From assembly GCF_900187405.1 (NCBI RefSeq), contig NZ_LT896716.1, forward strand, positions 186,001 through 250,000: 64,000 bases of DNA. Reading direction: 5' to 3'. A program made the translations under genes and the position numbers. The notes beneath the pieces were generated by a model. It did not search any database. It worked only from the letters and a program-made list of their open reading frames with translations, and was not told where the DNA came from. Position 1 is the stretch's first letter. The number at the start of each line of letters is the position of its first letter. Of this stretch, positions 38,656 through 47,641 are shown piece after piece. Origin of the DNA: Geobacter sp. DSM 9736 (GTDB taxonomy: Bacteria > Desulfobacterota > Desulfuromonadia > Geobacterales > Geobacteraceae).

Positions 38656-40020
38656 TTACCAATCTTCCTTCTGCTTCTCGGCCAGCTTCTCGAAGTAGAC
38701 AGCCGGGCTCGTGAGACGCAGGATTTCATAGTCGGAGTAGCCGAGGGCCTTGAAGTTGAGGACTCCGTTGGCCGCGTGGCAGTTCTCGCATGTGAGTGCT
38801 TTCTTCTTCGTTACCAGGTGGCTTATGGAGAAGTAGATGGTCTGCCATCCCGGAACGGGTTTGTATTTCTCGATGCCCAGGGTCTTCGCTGCCGAAGCTA
38901 TGCCTGCGAGGGTGTCCCCGGTAGCCATCGGCTGGGCAAAGTCCATTGCGAGAAGCTGGCCGGTATACTCGTCGTAGTAACCTTTCCCCAGGTACATCTT
39001 GAAGGGGTATATCTTGCTTGCCTTGTCGGTCCTGCTCCCTTTCGGGCCGATGAGATGCGGCATGTTTTCCACCGTCTTGTTGTACCAGGCATAGACCGGG
39101 ACGTTCTCGTTGACCTCTTTTCTAAGGGTGGTCGGCTCGTAGAACTTGTCGCTACCCATCTCCCACTTGGTGAAATCCTTGGCGAAGGCTCCGCCGGTGC
39201 GGGGAATGTGGCATGTCTCGCAGGCGATCCTGGCGGTATGCCGGTTGTAGTCGCTGTCTTTGTGCGGCTTGTCGCCGTGACAGTCGAGGCAGGAGACCCG
39301 GACGCCGTCGTTGGCCCAGTTGTTGGGGTCGTAACCCGTGGGAATCTTGTGGTCCTTGGCCTTGTGGCAGTCCACACAGACCATTTTTTTCGCGGCGTGG
39401 ACGTCGTATTCCTTCGTGAAAGCGAATCCTCTCTTTACGAGAACGCCTCCTCCCGCGGATTCATGACAGACCATGCAGTTCTTTATCCCGGGTTTGCCCA
39501 CCGACATGGCGGCTTTAACCGTCCGGTCCTGCCCCATCACCACCTCTCCCTTTTCGTTTTTCGAGAGTTTCCTAAGGCGAAAATCGTAGTCGGAGGAGTG
39601 GCAGACGAGGCAGTCTATTGCTGCTTCCGCTTCGGGACCAGTGCTTCCCACCCCCTGCAGGTGATTCCCCGGGTGGCAGCTGCTGCACCCGGTAATCTTG
39701 GTTTTACCTGCGGCATTTTTCGGAGTTTCCTTCAGGTCATTGACGATGTCGTTCCCGTTGCAGAAGGTGTAGACGCGGTTCTTCATTCCGTATTCTTTGT
39801 TCGGGTCCAGGTTGTCCACATTGGCAACTTTCGAAGCATGGTTCCAGTGGACGGTATCGAGGAATTTTCGGGCGGTGCCGGGGTGGCATTCCTCACAGGT
39901 GGCCGGGCCCTTGTAGCCGTTCTTCTCAATGTACTCCTTACCCGGGTGTTCCGCGGTAAATGCGGTGCTCGCAACGAGAAGCGCTGCCGATGCCGCGATC
40001 CAACGATATGCCGGTTTCAT
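38656..40020 (-). CDS. Octahaem c-type cytochrome
   Basis: Exported cytochrome of 454 residues with a signal peptide (MKPAYRWIAASAALLVASTA). Eight CXXCH sites: CEECH, CSSCH, CLVCH, CMVCH, CVDCH, CLDCH, CETCH and CENCH. No CXXCK or longer variant motif is seen, so all haems probably have His-type ligation; the last haem is 130 residues away from the seventh. Octahaem families include tetrathionate, nitrite and hydroxylamine enzymes, but this one shows no obvious catalytic signature of those. In the operon it may carry electrons between the molybdoenzyme and the outer membrane. Confidence 0.88.
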   Translation of the reverse strand: MKPAYRWIAASAALLVASTAFTAEHPGKEYIEKNGYKGPATCEECHPGTARKFLDTVHWNHASKVANVDNLDPNKEYGMKNRVYTFCNGNDIVNDLKETPKNAAGKTKITGCSSCHPGNHLQGVGSTGPEAEAAIDCLVCHSSDYDFRLRKLSKNEKGEVVMGQDRTVKAAMSVGKPGIKNCMVCHESAGGGVLVKRGFAFTKEYDVHAAKKMVCVDCHKAKDHKIPTGYDPNNWANDGVRVSCLDCHGDKPHKDSDYNRHTARIACETCHIPRTGGAFAKDFTKWEMGSDKFYEPTTLRKEVNENVPVYAWYNKTVENMPHLIGPKGSRTDKASKIYPFKMYLGKGYYDEYTGQLLAMDFAQPMATGDTLAGIASAAKTLGIEKYKPVPGWQTIYFSISHLVTKKKALTCENCHAANGVLNFKALGYSDYEILRLTSPAVYFEKLAEKQKEDW

Positions 40021-40091
40021 CTCCCTGCCTTTCTTTCGACCCGCCTGGTGCGGGTGCTCGGTGAGACGCTCCTGTGCGGGCGCCTTTTTTC

Positions 40092-40415
40092 TCAGCAGCC
40101 CGCCGTCTTTTTGAAGATCAGGCTGATGTTCTGCCCCTCTTTCGTTTCGTACTTGCAGCGGATCTCGTCCCCTTCGACGATACGGTTGTCCTTGAACTTG
40201 TCGAGGGTAAGCTCGTCGTTGACGACGACAGTGACAAGTTCATCGGTTTTGTTGTCTTTGAGGACGATGGTGGCCGTTTTGGCGTCTTTGCCGGCGACCT
40301 CGATCTTGGTGATGACGCCTACCATCTTCACCTCTTCCGCATGAGCAATGTTGCCGTAGGAAATGCCGAGGGCAATGAGGGTGACGAAAGTAAAAACGCT
40401 TACCAGCTTCTTCAT
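40092..40415 (-). CDS. Small exported OB-like protein ending in Ala-Gly-Cys
   Basis: Precursor of 107 residues with a signal peptide (MKKLVSVFTFVTLIALG...AHA). The mature part of about 80 residues is beta-rich (VGVITKIEVAGKDAKTATIVL; IVEGDEIRCKYE) and ends KKTAGC. It resembles small exported beta-barrel/OB-type proteins such as DUF5666 members, but I cannot name a family with certainty. It lies between the porin and octahaem genes, with a strong hairpin between it and the porin. Start ATG 40415 follows AAGGAGAAGAAC. Confidence 0.75.
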   Translation of the reverse strand: MKKLVSVFTFVTLIALGISYGNIAHAEEVKMVGVITKIEVAGKDAKTATIVLKDNKTDELVTVVVNDELTLDKFKDNRIVEGDEIRCKYETKEGQNISLIFKKTAGC

Positions 40416-40448
40416 GGTTCTTCTCCTTATACGGTGACGCTGTTTGTA

Positions 40449-40471
40449 GGCGGGCGCATGATGCGCCCGCC
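40449..40471 (-). promoter_or_regulatory. Intercistronic hairpin
   Basis: A perfect 11-bp stem, GGCGGGCGCAT / ATGCGCCCGCC, with a one-base centre, lies 8 nt after the porin stop and has no T-tract. It probably protects the upstream message or partly limits read-through. Confidence 0.7.
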
Positions 40472-40478
40472 CGATGGA

Positions 40479-42173
40479 TCAAAATTTGACTTCGAAGGTA
40501 GCGTAAATGTTCTGCGCGGTTTTCAGCGGGGTGAGGAGTTGCATTTGCTGGCCGTTCAGGCTCGATATCTTGACGGGAGCTCCGACCCAGTTGTTGCTGC
40601 CGGTGTACTCGAAGTCGTAATACTGGTAGCCGACCTTGAAGAAGGTCTTGGACAGGTATGAGGAGATCGGCTTCAGGTTGAGATCCTGGATGAGGTAGCC
40701 CTCGTAGACGTTGCCTCGGGTTCCCGCCTTGGCGGTCCACATGTCGTCTGCGGCAGGTGCGAATGTGATCCAGTTCTTGGAGCCGTGGTTGTATTCCGCG
40801 CCGATCTTTGTCCCGGTCGGCAGGTCGTAACGGGCACCTACGTACGTGGCCCAGCCGGTTTTGTCACTGGGGGCTTCGGGGTTGAAGAAAGAGCCGGTCA
40901 TGAGCCCCTGGAACCCTGCATTGGCGGAGACATTGTCGTTTGGATGGGTCACGCTGAGACCGAACTCCGCGAACACATTAAGATTGCCGGGGCCCACCTT
41001 CTTGAGGGTGCTCAGGACGCCGGTGCCGAACCAGTCGATGTCCCCGAGATTGACGCTGGGTGCGGTATCGCCGAAAGCGGAGCTCCGCATCTCCGGAAAG
41101 TCGAAGATATTGAAGCCGCGATTCCACTGGAGATGAATACGGAGCGGGTCGGTGTCGACCGGGACGATTGCTACCCCCAGCATGTCGGTGTCACGCAGCG
41201 TATTGCCTGCCGGGTTCTCGATGCCTGAATCGAAGCCCCGCCCGTAGCATATCTTTCCGTACGCGCCCGGAAGAGCCTCGATGTCGGGGGCCCATCCCAG
41301 GGTCATGCCGTCGAAGGCGTAATCCACCAGCAGAGCTGGGGTTCCGCCGTTGCCGGGGCGCTCTGTATTGAGACGGAGGTGCTCCGGTATTCCATTGGTG
41401 GAGGGACGGCGACCGACTGAAAACCATACCGGCTCGTCGCCTATGTTTGCCCAGGTAGCATACGCCCGATCGACGTTGACGTAGTCGGAGGAGGGGATAT
41501 GGCCGAGGGTGCCGTCGAAGACCCCTACCCGGTCCGCGAAATAGGGATTCCCGCTGCCGGTGACTGCAGCATCGGTGTTGGACCCGAAGGTTTTGTACAT
41601 GAGAAGACGGACGTTCACAGTTACATCCTGGGTTGCTTTCGCATGCAGGTCGAGACCAAGGCGATTGGTGTAAAGGGTATCGTTCTTCGGCTTGTAGGAT
41701 GGGGTCTGTTGAGCGAATGCGAAAAGCCCTCCGGGGTTGGCCGGATCGAGAAGTCCGCCGGGAGCGCCGTGGGTTGCGAGGAAGGTGTTGGCGGCGCTGT
41801 AGGTCGTGGCGTTCCTCATGGCAGACTGGAAGTTCATGAAATTAGCCACCGCTGGCCCGAATAGAACGGGGTTGCCCGCGAAACCAAGGTTCATCTGGTC
41901 CTGGGCGAATGAGAAAGTTCTGTTCACGTCGATATAGGGGGCTGTTTTTCCCCGCAGGCTGTCCACCCGGAACCGGTAGTCACCGCCGATGGTGAGCCAG
42001 CGGTTGAGGGATTTCTCCTGCTCCTTCTTTGTCTGCTGCTTAAGTGCCTCCACTTCCTTCGACAGTGCATCCAGCTTTTGCTGGAGGTCCTGGTCCGCGG
42101 CCTGTGCCGCAAACGGCAGTGCCAACCCGGCGGCGAGGGTGCCGGTCACGATGGTGCGAATAGTTGCTCGCAT
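40479..42173 (-). CDS. Outer-membrane porin-like protein with coiled-coil N-terminus
   Basis: Exported protein of 564 residues. A signal peptide (MRATIRTIVTGTLAAGLALPFAAQA) precedes a coiled coil (DLQQKLDALSKEVEALKQQ), then a long beta-rich region with GGDYRFRVDSLRG, many Gly/Asn/aromatic residues and a terminal ATFEVKF strand. This layout (SLH-like or coiled-coil start plus barrel, terminal Phe) fits the DUF3373 family of Geobacter-type putative porins. It is the first gene of the molybdoenzyme operon; AAGGAG lies upstream. It may be a channel or a barrel hosting cytochromes, which cannot be judged here. Confidence 0.8.
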   Translation of the reverse strand: MRATIRTIVTGTLAAGLALPFAAQAADQDLQQKLDALSKEVEALKQQTKKEQEKSLNRWLTIGGDYRFRVDSLRGKTAPYIDVNRTFSFAQDQMNLGFAGNPVLFGPAVANFMNFQSAMRNATTYSAANTFLATHGAPGGLLDPANPGGLFAFAQQTPSYKPKNDTLYTNRLGLDLHAKATQDVTVNVRLLMYKTFGSNTDAAVTGSGNPYFADRVGVFDGTLGHIPSSDYVNVDRAYATWANIGDEPVWFSVGRRPSTNGIPEHLRLNTERPGNGGTPALLVDYAFDGMTLGWAPDIEALPGAYGKICYGRGFDSGIENPAGNTLRDTDMLGVAIVPVDTDPLRIHLQWNRGFNIFDFPEMRSSAFGDTAPSVNLGDIDWFGTGVLSTLKKVGPGNLNVFAEFGLSVTHPNDNVSANAGFQGLMTGSFFNPEAPSDKTGWATYVGARYDLPTGTKIGAEYNHGSKNWITFAPAADDMWTAKAGTRGNVYEGYLIQDLNLKPISSYLSKTFFKVGYQYYDFEYTGSNNWVGAPVKISSLNGQQMQLLTPLKTAQNIYATFEVKF

Positions 42174-45870: not shown

Positions 45871-46079
45871 GACCTGTTCCTGGAGGAGTGAGTGCGACTG
45901 TTCGTTAATAGCGGATGCGAGGGCTCATGTCAAGGCAATGCCTGCCGTGGCATACTCCTCATCGCATCAGCCGTTTCCTGATAACGTTTGCTGCTGCTCA
46001 TAGGGAACAAATAATATTTTTCCCCTTGAACAACATTCTTCACCATGATAAAGTCCAATCATTCATTAGTAAAAAGTTT
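45871..46079 (+). promoter_or_regulatory. Promoter region before the tandem riboswitches
   Basis: About 200 bp without a gene. TTGAAC at 46026-46031 with GATAAA at 46047-46052 is the best sigma-70-like pair; the spacing is 15, slightly short. It would start transcription just before the first aptamer. The rest shows nothing clear. Confidence 0.35.
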
Positions 46080-46192
46080 CCGATACACGACAATACTAAA
46101 CCATCCGCGAGGGTGGGACGGAAAGCCTAAGGGTCTCACGAAGACAGCCGGGTCGCCGAAATATCGCGAGGATATTCGGCCCCGGCTTTTTT
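46080..46192 (+). promoter_or_regulatory. GEMM-I riboswitch 1 with terminator
   Basis: Aptamer features are ACGACAATACTAAACCATCC, the GCGA tetraloop, GGGACGGAAAGCCTAAGG and AGCCGGG, the GEMM-I cyclic-dinucleotide fold. The ACAATAC sequence in the ligand pocket, instead of the CACAGGGC-type, matches the Geobacter GEMM-Ib group selective for 3',3'-cGAMP. AGCCGGG..GCCGAA / TTCGGC..CCCGGCT followed by TTTTTT forms a terminator sharing the aptamer's 3' strand, so ligand should permit transcription. Confidence 0.9.
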
Positions 46193-46274
46193 GTACCCCG
46201 AACGTGGAGAATTCATAGATAAACAAGGTTGCGCAGGAGCGTCAATCGCCGGCAAGAGCGGCGACAGCAAGGGT

Positions 46275-46387
46275 GGTACACGATAATACTCAACCATTCG
46301 CGAGAATGGGGCGGAAAGCCTAAGGGTCTCACCGAGACAGCCGGGTTGCCGAAATATCACGAGGATATTCGGCCCCGGTTTTTTTTG
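46275..46387 (+). promoter_or_regulatory. GEMM-I riboswitch 2 with terminator
   Basis: Second copy, very similar: CACGATAATACTCAACCATT, a GCGA loop, GGGGCGGAAAGCCTAAGG, then GCCGGGTTGCCGAA and TTCGGCCCCGGTTTTTTTT. It lies 82 nt after copy 1, in series with it, and 97 nt before the lipoprotein start. The compensatory change CATCCGCGAGGGTG to CATTCGCGAGAATG supports a maintained stem. Confidence 0.9.
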
Positions 46388-46483
46388 TGCCGGGGAGGGT
46401 AAACATGTCGCTGCCGGAGACGGCAGGGACGGAAACCATGGATCCTCAGGTTCCATCGGAAAAAGAGTAAGACGGAGGTAAGA

Positions 46484-47641
46484 ATGAAAACGAAGAATGT
46501 GGTACTCTCAATCGCGGTTCTGGGCCTTGCGGTCGCCATAAGCGGGTGCGGCAGCAGTGGAGGAGGAGTTTCCCTTTCCGGCGGAGCCGCGACTTCCGGC
46601 CAGCAGACCCCTGCTGCTGATTCCACCGCAGGTACTGCCACAGCGGCCGTCCAGGCGGGTAAAACCATCTATGATGGCAGGTGTGCGGGGTGCCACAAGC
46701 TGGGGAGCTACGATACGACCGGTTCCTACATGGATCTGATGGGTACGGGGAACAACATTGAAGCCAAATTTTCCGGCTCCCACAACGGCATCACTCTGGC
46801 CGCTACCGAATCGCGGGATGTCAGGGCTTTCATAGATGTAAATTCCGGCATTGCTCCAGCTCCCGCGGCTGATCCGACGCCCGATGCCCCAACCTCGCCG
46901 GCACCGGCTGCCGGCACCCCCCAGCCCGCAACGAGCACCAACGGAAAAAACCTCTACGACGGCAGGTGTGCCGGTTGCCACAAACTCGGGAGCTATGATG
47001 CCGCCGGGTCTCCTGAGCTTGCGGGCAAAGGAAGCGCGGTGACAACCAAGCTCGCCGCTTCCCACATGGGTATCACCCTTGCCGCCACAGATGTGGCCGA
47101 CATCAGGACATTCATCGAAGCGAACTCTGCGAGCCCAGCTCCGGCCCCCGTTGTTACTACGCCGCCCGTACCGGTCCCGGTTTCTCCCCAGGAGCCGGCA
47201 TCCACGCCAACACCTGCTCCGGCTGCGCCTGCCGGGAAGGCTTCGTTCGACAGCAAATGTGCAGGATGCCATTCCTTCGCGACCCTTTCCGGCAGGGGTA
47301 ACCTCGTCGCATCCAAATTCCCGGTAGCGGGGGCAGCTGGGCATAACGGCATCACACTCTCGGCAACAGAGATAACCGATATCAGGTCCTACCTCGATGC
47401 CCCGGCTGCCGGCCAGCCCGCTTCTCCGTCGGCACCGGCGCCGGTTGTCCTTGATGGTCAGACGCTCTACGCAAACTACTGCGCCCTGTGCCACGGATCA
47501 CTCACCAGATCGGACATCAGGGGAGAATCCGCAAGCGATACCCAGTCCGCCATCAACAGAAACAAGGGAGGGATGGGGACAGCCACGCTGAAGAGCCTTA
47601 CCATCACCCAGTTGGAAGCCATCGCAAACGCGCTGAGGTAG
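46484..47641 (+). CDS. PgcA-like lipoprotein with four monohaem c domains
   Basis: Exported lipoprotein of 385 residues. The signal peptide ends in the lipobox ISGCGSS (Cys22). Four monohaem domains have CAGCH near residues 67, 163 and 260 and CALCH near 333. They are joined by long Pro/Ala/Thr linkers. Domains 1 and 2 share YDGRCAGCHKLGSYD, so they are recent duplicates. The design matches PgcA of Geobacter, an extracellular cytochrome with three haem domains and repetitive linkers, used in reducing iron oxides. Here there are four haems. It is controlled by the two GEMM riboswitches upstream; ACGGAGGTAAG is the ribosome site. Confidence 0.9.
   Translation: MKTKNVVLSIAVLGLAVAISGCGSSGGGVSLSGGAATSGQQTPAADSTAGTATAAVQAGKTIYDGRCAGCHKLGSYDTTGSYMDLMGTGNNIEAKFSGSHNGITLAATESRDVRAFIDVNSGIAPAPAADPTPDAPTSPAPAAGTPQPATSTNGKNLYDGRCAGCHKLGSYDAAGSPELAGKGSAVTTKLAASHMGITLAATDVADIRTFIEANSASPAPAPVVTTPPVPVPVSPQEPASTPTPAPAAPAGKASFDSKCAGCHSFATLSGRGNLVASKFPVAGAAGHNGITLSATEITDIRSYLDAPAAGQPASPSAPAPVVLDGQTLYANYCALCHGSLTRSDIRGESASDTQSAINRNKGGMGTATLKSLTITQLEAIANALR

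Follow-up and report, generated by a model that had tools for sequence, protein, structure and literature searches.

The leader at positions 46080–46387 of the 64,000-nucleotide stretch of Geobacter sp. DSM 9736 DNA analyzed here (the window) raises the question of which messenger it reads and what is gained by placing two riboswitches in series before a single cytochrome gene. In G. sulfurreducens, pgcA (GSU1761) is driven by a cGAMP-responsive GEMM switch (PMC5732950), and serial units are known both for cGAMP and for c-di-GMP riboswitches (PMC6456294, PMC9481103). Two aptamers with A at position 20, an overlap of each P1 stem with a terminator, two hairpins with T-runs, a cytochrome gene and two Hypr-serine GGDEF domains were observed, and it is highly probable that the leader is a homotypic tandem of two GEMM-Ib (3',3'-cGAMP) riboswitches that exerts ON-type control of a PgcA-like cytochrome.

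A comparison of the 64 kb window with 4227 Rfam families returned two matches to RF01051 (c-di-GMP-I/GEMM-I), at 46085–46160 (copy 1; 45.9 bits, E 8.4e-6) and 46278–46353 (copy 2; 45.4 bits, E 1.2e-5). Both lie on the + strand, both exceed the gathering score of 35 bits and are thus members of the family, and they were the sole Rfam matches at or above the gathering threshold in the window. By alignment, a P1 stem is formed between 46081–46085 and 46162–46166 in copy 1 and between 46274–46278 and 46355–46359 in copy 2, giving aptamers with P1 at 46081–46166 and 46274–46359 (+ strand). With a full aptamer and a separate platform in each of its two units, the leader has the architecture of a serial two-platform riboswitch; the pair of GEMM-I aptamers described in the initial annotation was thus recovered in place. 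The stems had also been described as covarying. Among the nine aptamers of this backbone in the host genome, five base pairs were changed on both sides (against a mean of 2.0 in 500 shuffles, none of which reached 5), two of them in P1 and three in P2; no pair of P3 was changed on both sides, so that the description is supported for P1 and P2. In the same nine aptamers, 93.7% of the cells were paired against a shuffle mean of 91.9% (reached by 7 of 500 shuffles), while slid partners, used as a control, gave at most 47.7%; P1 as drawn was paired in only 75.6% of its cells.

The ligand was assigned from base 20 (Vc2 numbering), which was taken to be position 11 of RF01051. According to the Rfam match and the alignment, this base is A at 46095 in copy 1 and at 46288 in copy 2; both copies carry the A instead of G of the GEMM-Ib subclass and should therefore prefer cGAMP, which agrees with the cGAMP-selective subclass suggested earlier, as judged from sequence. 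The exchange A20G is reported to convert a cGAMP aptamer into a c-di-GMP aptamer (PMC6456294). Position 20 has been described as a selectivity factor that sets a preference and is no hard filter, and a title cited in the same paper attributes c-di-GMP binding by cGAMP switches to adenine protonation (PMC9262584). The 13 RF01051 matches of the host genome comprise nine with A20, three with G20 (one of which, L013, scores under the cut-off) and one with C20, as read from the simple position in the match. Two further host sites were observed: a GEMM-I aptamer with C20 (L002 1501–1587, minus strand; C1:2815505–2815591) before a six-CxxCH cytochrome, which we take to resemble OmcS, and a second homotypic A20 tandem (L010/L012; C1:986948–987233) before a gene for a lipoprotein with, by eye, an L,D-transpeptidase-like domain.

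The host genome also encodes candidate enzymes for the ligand. Its 20 GGDEF matches carry Asp (16) or Ser (2) at the selectivity site, the motif being unreadable in the remaining two. The Ser-bearing, Hypr-type domains belong to a REC-GAF-GGDEF protein with the motif GGDEY (L068), the gene of which adjoins a gene taken by eye for hisS, and to a HAMP-GGDDF protein (L073); the two correspond in pattern to G. sulfurreducens GacA and GSU1937 (PMC8835794). Given the A20 aptamers and the Hypr-serine GGDEF domains, cGAMP is very likely to be both made and read in this organism.

Each aptamer is followed by a strong hairpin that runs into a T-run, as had been proposed in the initial annotation. Terminator 1 (46146–46192, + strand) consists of a 42 nt hairpin at 46146–46187 (−25.7 kcal/mol, z −4.25; none of 200 shuffles as good) and six T at 46187–46192, the first of which is paired. 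Terminator 2 (46339–46386, + strand) consists of a hairpin at 46339–46380 (−22.4 kcal/mol, z −3.64; again none of 200 shuffles) and eight T at 46379–46386, the first one or two of which fall within the hairpin stretch. These fold figures, like the model and Fisher figures below, take no account of kinship. The common design that had been attributed to the two terminators holds as regards the hairpin and T-run; however, the CCCGGCT ending is absent from the second, which closes with CCCCGGTT. Since a simple consensus terminator scan listed neither hairpin, the terminators were called from the folds and the competing pairings. In both units the 5' terminator arm overlaps P1 and the 3' strand of P3; in unit 1 it consists of the 3' strands of these two stems.

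At aptamer length, the best fold is more stable than the consensus aptamer fold without ligand by 5.1 kcal/mol in unit 1 and 10.1 kcal/mol in unit 2, and once the terminator has been transcribed the difference is 26.5 and 24.2 kcal/mol, respectively; the energy model thus does not prefer the consensus aptamer fold even at aptamer length. Compared with shuffles, the aptamer-length fold of unit 1 is no better (z −0.11), and that of unit 2 has a z of −1.90. As the aptamer fold is not favoured even early, the ligand would have to act during RNA synthesis. This is the measured mechanism of the pilM GEMM-Ib switch of G. metallireducens, where binding occurs within a narrow window of transcript lengths and is lost when the terminator, which sequesters the ligand-pairing C, takes up C75; pilM is treated as a single switch in that paper (PMC9262584). 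In the proposed mechanism, cGAMP would stabilize each aptamer including P1, and P1 and P3 would then withhold the strand from which the terminator builds its 5' arm. In the absence of cGAMP, transcription would end after unit 1, or after unit 2 if unit 1 has been read through; with cGAMP, both terminators would be passed and the cytochrome would be made. Such a leader resembles the GSU1761 switch, in which a cGAMP-type aptamer and a terminator with ON behavior precede PgcA, although two switches are present here instead of the one described there, and the encoded protein has four CxxCH motifs instead of three (PMC6456294, PMC5732950). It also resembles the tandem before GSU2885 (omcAHG) of G. 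sulfurreducens, in which two serial cGAMP switches are separated by termination (PMC6456294). In a G. sulfurreducens tandem, no RNA is detected by the second switch when gacA is deleted (PMC6456294). The gene served by the GSU2885 tandem is a different one, and the ordered copies described below are not discussed in the relevant parts of that paper.

A promoter-like site, TTGAAC-17-TAAAGT, in which a TG stands one base upstream of the −10 hexamer, was read by eye at 46026–46054 (+ strand) and may serve the leader; it is absent from the output of a consensus promoter scan. A promoter in the spacer between the units (46193–46273) would allow unit 1 to be bypassed; the consensus scan, which also missed the proposed site, listed no + strand promoter there.

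The next gene (46484–47641, + strand) encodes a predicted lipoprotein c-type cytochrome of 385 amino acids, and the cytochrome gene expected downstream is therefore present. The protein has Pfam matches to Cytochrome_CBB3 and Cytochrom_C and four CxxCH motifs at residues 67, 162, 259 and 333. Its phmmer matches 8qk0, 8qjg and 8qj6 (E 7e-15 to 4e-10) are domains III, II and I of G. sulfurreducens PgcA (PMC11520253), and a fourth match is 6btm (E 3.6e-4). Together with P/A-rich linkers and a lipobox-like ISGC read by eye, the monohaem CxxCH modules resembling PgcA domains I–III suggest a protein of the PgcA type. Between terminator 2 and this gene lies a possible upstream ORF of 21 codons (46405–46470, + strand; MSLPETAGTETMDPQVPSEKE), which is preceded by the stretch GGGGAGGG, ends 13 bases before the cytochrome start and could encode a leader peptide. 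Elsewhere in the window, genes for a multihaem cytochrome, a small protein and a DUF3373 protein stand in a row at 38656–42173, perhaps, at a guess, as a porin-cytochrome conduit.

Matches to the window cytochrome were found in 17 of the 57 related genomes searched (18 of 58 when the host is counted), 38 in all. Seventeen such places from 16 genomes were read, seven of them picked with a nearby switch already known; a GEMM-Ib switch was located upstream on the same strand at 12 of the 17, as a tandem in seven of these 12, and no switch was found at the other five, two of which (L116 and L117) are cut by a contig end. In L113 (1368–1644), the Rfam variants c-di-GMP-I-UAU and c-di-GMP-I-GGC form a doublet about 700 bases behind a GEMM-Ib switch.

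The two window copies differ at a pair of coupled bases. In a comparison set of 105 GEMM-Ib-backbone aptamers (nine from the host and 96 from relatives, two A20G copies included), Rfam positions 34 and 81 (columns 39 and 76 of alignment A2), which lie outside the RF01051 secondary structure, co-vary as G-U (61), A-C (31), A-U (5) and G-C (2) in the 99 aptamers that could be scored by motif (Fisher 3.7e-18, kinship ignored). The counts look like those of a wobble pair that can also take the isosteric A-C form. Copy 1 of the window carries A-C and copy 2 carries G-U. The notion that copy 1 has a defect in its A-C mismatch at the foot of P3 was rejected, because C at that site goes with A at position 34. 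Seven of the eight tandems before related cytochrome genes, the window included, have A-C first and G-U second (the exception is G020), compared with one of the 34 other arrays of this backbone (Fisher 2.3e-6, kinship ignored); each of the two groups includes one mixed array with A20G, the genomes are non-independent, and transfer from one lineage to another might likewise produce this order. Over the eight tandems, copies of the same rank are more alike than copies of different rank, to a degree reached in two of 128 label flips, the observed one included. As the eight tandems are spread over two families of the order (f1 and f3), the cytochrome tandem probably predates the split between the families, unless it was transferred between lineages.

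Whether both units contribute must be considered in this light. If unit 2 were a spare copy from a recent duplication that adds nothing, copies in one array should be close kin, and in general they are slightly so: the mean identity within arrays is 0.85 compared with 0.80 for random pairs, and the nearest relative of 19 of 93 copies lies in the same array. However, the window copies are 0.83 identical and neither is the nearest relative of the other among the 105, so that recent duplication was judged unlikely for them; furthermore, the rank pattern is preserved across two families, and A20 and a terminator are present in both units. A spare copy is thus very improbable, and the two units seem to be old and to have been kept distinct. 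A more tentative proposal, which we regard as possible but would not favour, is that they are not redundant, their different affinity or speed giving a two-step response, or one of them mainly setting basal termination. The order preserved in seven of eight cytochrome tandems, the stronger terminator of unit 1 (−25.7 versus −22.4 kcal/mol) and a P1 that differs between the copies would fit such a division of labor, whereas common descent alone would preserve the order, and both the G-U and the A-C form are common among the aptamers compared.

For two units that act independently, the benefit of doubling can be modeled. Two hyperbolic units in series gave an apparent Hill coefficient of 1.12–1.19, raised the EC50 2.0–2.4 fold and squared the fold induction. 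The initial annotation had expected a sharper response, since transcription must pass both units; the series logic itself stands, but the model predicts only a slight sharpening. With the fold induction squared and so low a Hill coefficient, the main benefit of the doubling is likely to be this squared induction, and hence a tight OFF state and not a sharp switch.

The setting of the window tandem was surveyed in 21 related genomes, chosen for contiguity and for the size of the match list (150) and not at random. Their 401 RF01051 matches, those under the family cut-off included, formed 54 arrays (matches within 450 bases on one strand), namely 50 doublets, three triplets and one quadruplet. 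By base 20 these read AA (37), AAA (1), AAAA (1), GG (4), AG (8), AAG (2) and an unclear CA (1); the L124 doublet, whose first match has 31.1 bits and an odd sequence, lies within the 54 and in no class. The second cGAMP tandem of the host (L010/L012) and a mixed array of the host are outside the 54. One array (L132; G004:C1:3033428–3034088) was observed to have four A20 riboswitches in series. All-A20 arrays account for 39 of the 54, and tandem cGAMP switches have been published for G. sulfurreducens; the arrangement in the window is not unusual. It is a further example of a known design with a mechanism that is already understood.

Ten of the 54 arrays are mixed (L125, L133, L139, L144, L147, L156, L162, L168, L176 and L177), and the A20 units stand first in all 11 when that of the host is added; in our judgement they represent four or five origins (the fibronectin-type leaders of f1 and f3, G040, G017 and G030). 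An A20 unit followed by a G20 unit, as a two-input leader would have, is thus found elsewhere in the host genome but not in the window, where both units have A20. In the host mixed array (C1:1681420–1681668), an A20 unit with its own terminator-like stretch (L007 1501–1577) is followed 83 bases behind by a G20 unit (L007 1661–1749), which is the strongest GEMM-I match of the host (C1:1681580, 71 bits). That one aptamer of the window itself senses c-di-GMP, making the leader a two-signal gate, might be suspected from this host array (L007/L001) and from mixed arrays before PgcA-related genes of three other species; with A20 and the GEMM-Ib backbone in both window aptamers, it is extremely doubtful, and the homotypic cGAMP tandem is retained for the window.

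The second unit is a full c-di-GMP-type aptamer in eight of the ten mixed arrays and in the host one. The genes behind them mostly appear to encode secreted proteins with fibronectin-III-like domains. Pfam fn3 matches of 25.9–42.8 bits (curated cut-off 25) were obtained behind the G001, G005, G008, G051 and first G053 arrays; the secreted protein behind the host array has a dockerin match and a weak fn3 match of 20.2 bits, under the cut-off, and the gene behind the G040 array has no Pfam fn3 match. By eye, similar genes follow the G014 and second G053 arrays, the Pfam scan having covered the other arrays. The second platform looks like Shine-Dalgarno sequestration in the host, G001, G008, G014 and G040 arrays, in which the pairing was reached by 2, 0, 2, 4 and 0 of 300 shuffles, respectively. 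The pairing is weak in G005 (40 of 300) and no better than chance in G051 (47 of 300) and the two G053 arrays (25 and 70 of 300); in these last three, a GAAACAG..CTGTTTC pairing ends in nine T and appears by eye to be a terminator.

The other two mixed arrays (G017 and G030) have a GEMM-Ib copy with a natural A20G as their second unit. The G017 and G022 leaders are orthologous, and their second aptamers are identical over 76 bases save base 20. A pattern search found 11 A20G copies in ten of 141 genomes of the order, the host included (L178–L188). In three species of one genus (G030, G063 and G067), a lipoprotein gene is preceded by a common A-then-G tandem. The lipoprotein gene of G030 belongs to the matches of the window cytochrome, and those of G063 and G067 encode proteins with a similar N terminus. 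In G036 and G057 an A20G copy precedes a lipoprotein gene, with an A20 copy about 1 kb upstream; the lipoprotein gene of G036 lies near a match to the window cytochrome. Two A20G copies stand in a row in G088, and L184, L185 and L186 (the last cut by a contig end) have no A20 copy in the stretch read. Several of the A20G copies precede lipoprotein genes of the PgcA-related kind. Sequence comparison thus suggests that a tandem before a PgcA-related gene has become mixed in three species of one genus through a natural A20G, a change that was once engineered in the laboratory.

These arrays bear on published surveys. Tandem c-di-GMP-I riboswitches have been counted as 347 doublets and 12 triplets and described as serial independent units with 'pseudo-cooperative' behavior, as may also hold for the window tandem, but the counts do not appear to be split by base 20 and the units are taken as having one ligand (PMC9481103). 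Similarly, c-di-GMP tandems were reported to be enriched in Thermodesulfobacteriota, with identical ligands expected (PMC12452182). As RF01051 covers both cGAMP and c-di-GMP aptamers, a survey at the family level counts mixed arrays as same-ligand doublets. GEMM switches have been linked with fibronectin-III genes in Geobacter (PMC13194489, PMC2996986), and mixed-ligand examples combine AdoCbl with c-di-GMP or with c-AMP-GMP; the table of gates in that survey contains no cGAMP/c-di-GMP pair (PMC9481103). Such a pairing was not found in the portions of the literature searched, PMC7266159 included, although the two founding 2015 PNAS papers might mention one.

Taken together, we consider it fairly probable that the window tandem shows, in its one-ligand state, a leader that its order-mates make into a two-signal gate. 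In such a gate a cGAMP-type unit would be followed by a c-di-GMP-type one. The latter would be a full GEMM-Ia aptamer in leaders that mostly serve secreted fibronectin-III-like proteins, or a natural A20G GEMM-Ib copy in leaders of cytochrome genes, PgcA-related ones included, so that surface proteins would be made only at the right combination of messengers. Since the second aptamers of G017 and G022 differ solely at base 20, the proposed natural change of ligand is directly testable. The window itself would add one more surface cytochrome to those under cGAMP control, and its OFF state is probably tight. For specialists, the interest lies in mixed arrays of one order and in a natural A20G before the same kind of cytochrome gene. 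In G. sulfurreducens, cGAMP is reported to favour Fe(III) oxide particles and c-di-GMP electrodes (PMC6456294), and the choice between these surfaces would be made directly at a leader that responds to the two messengers.
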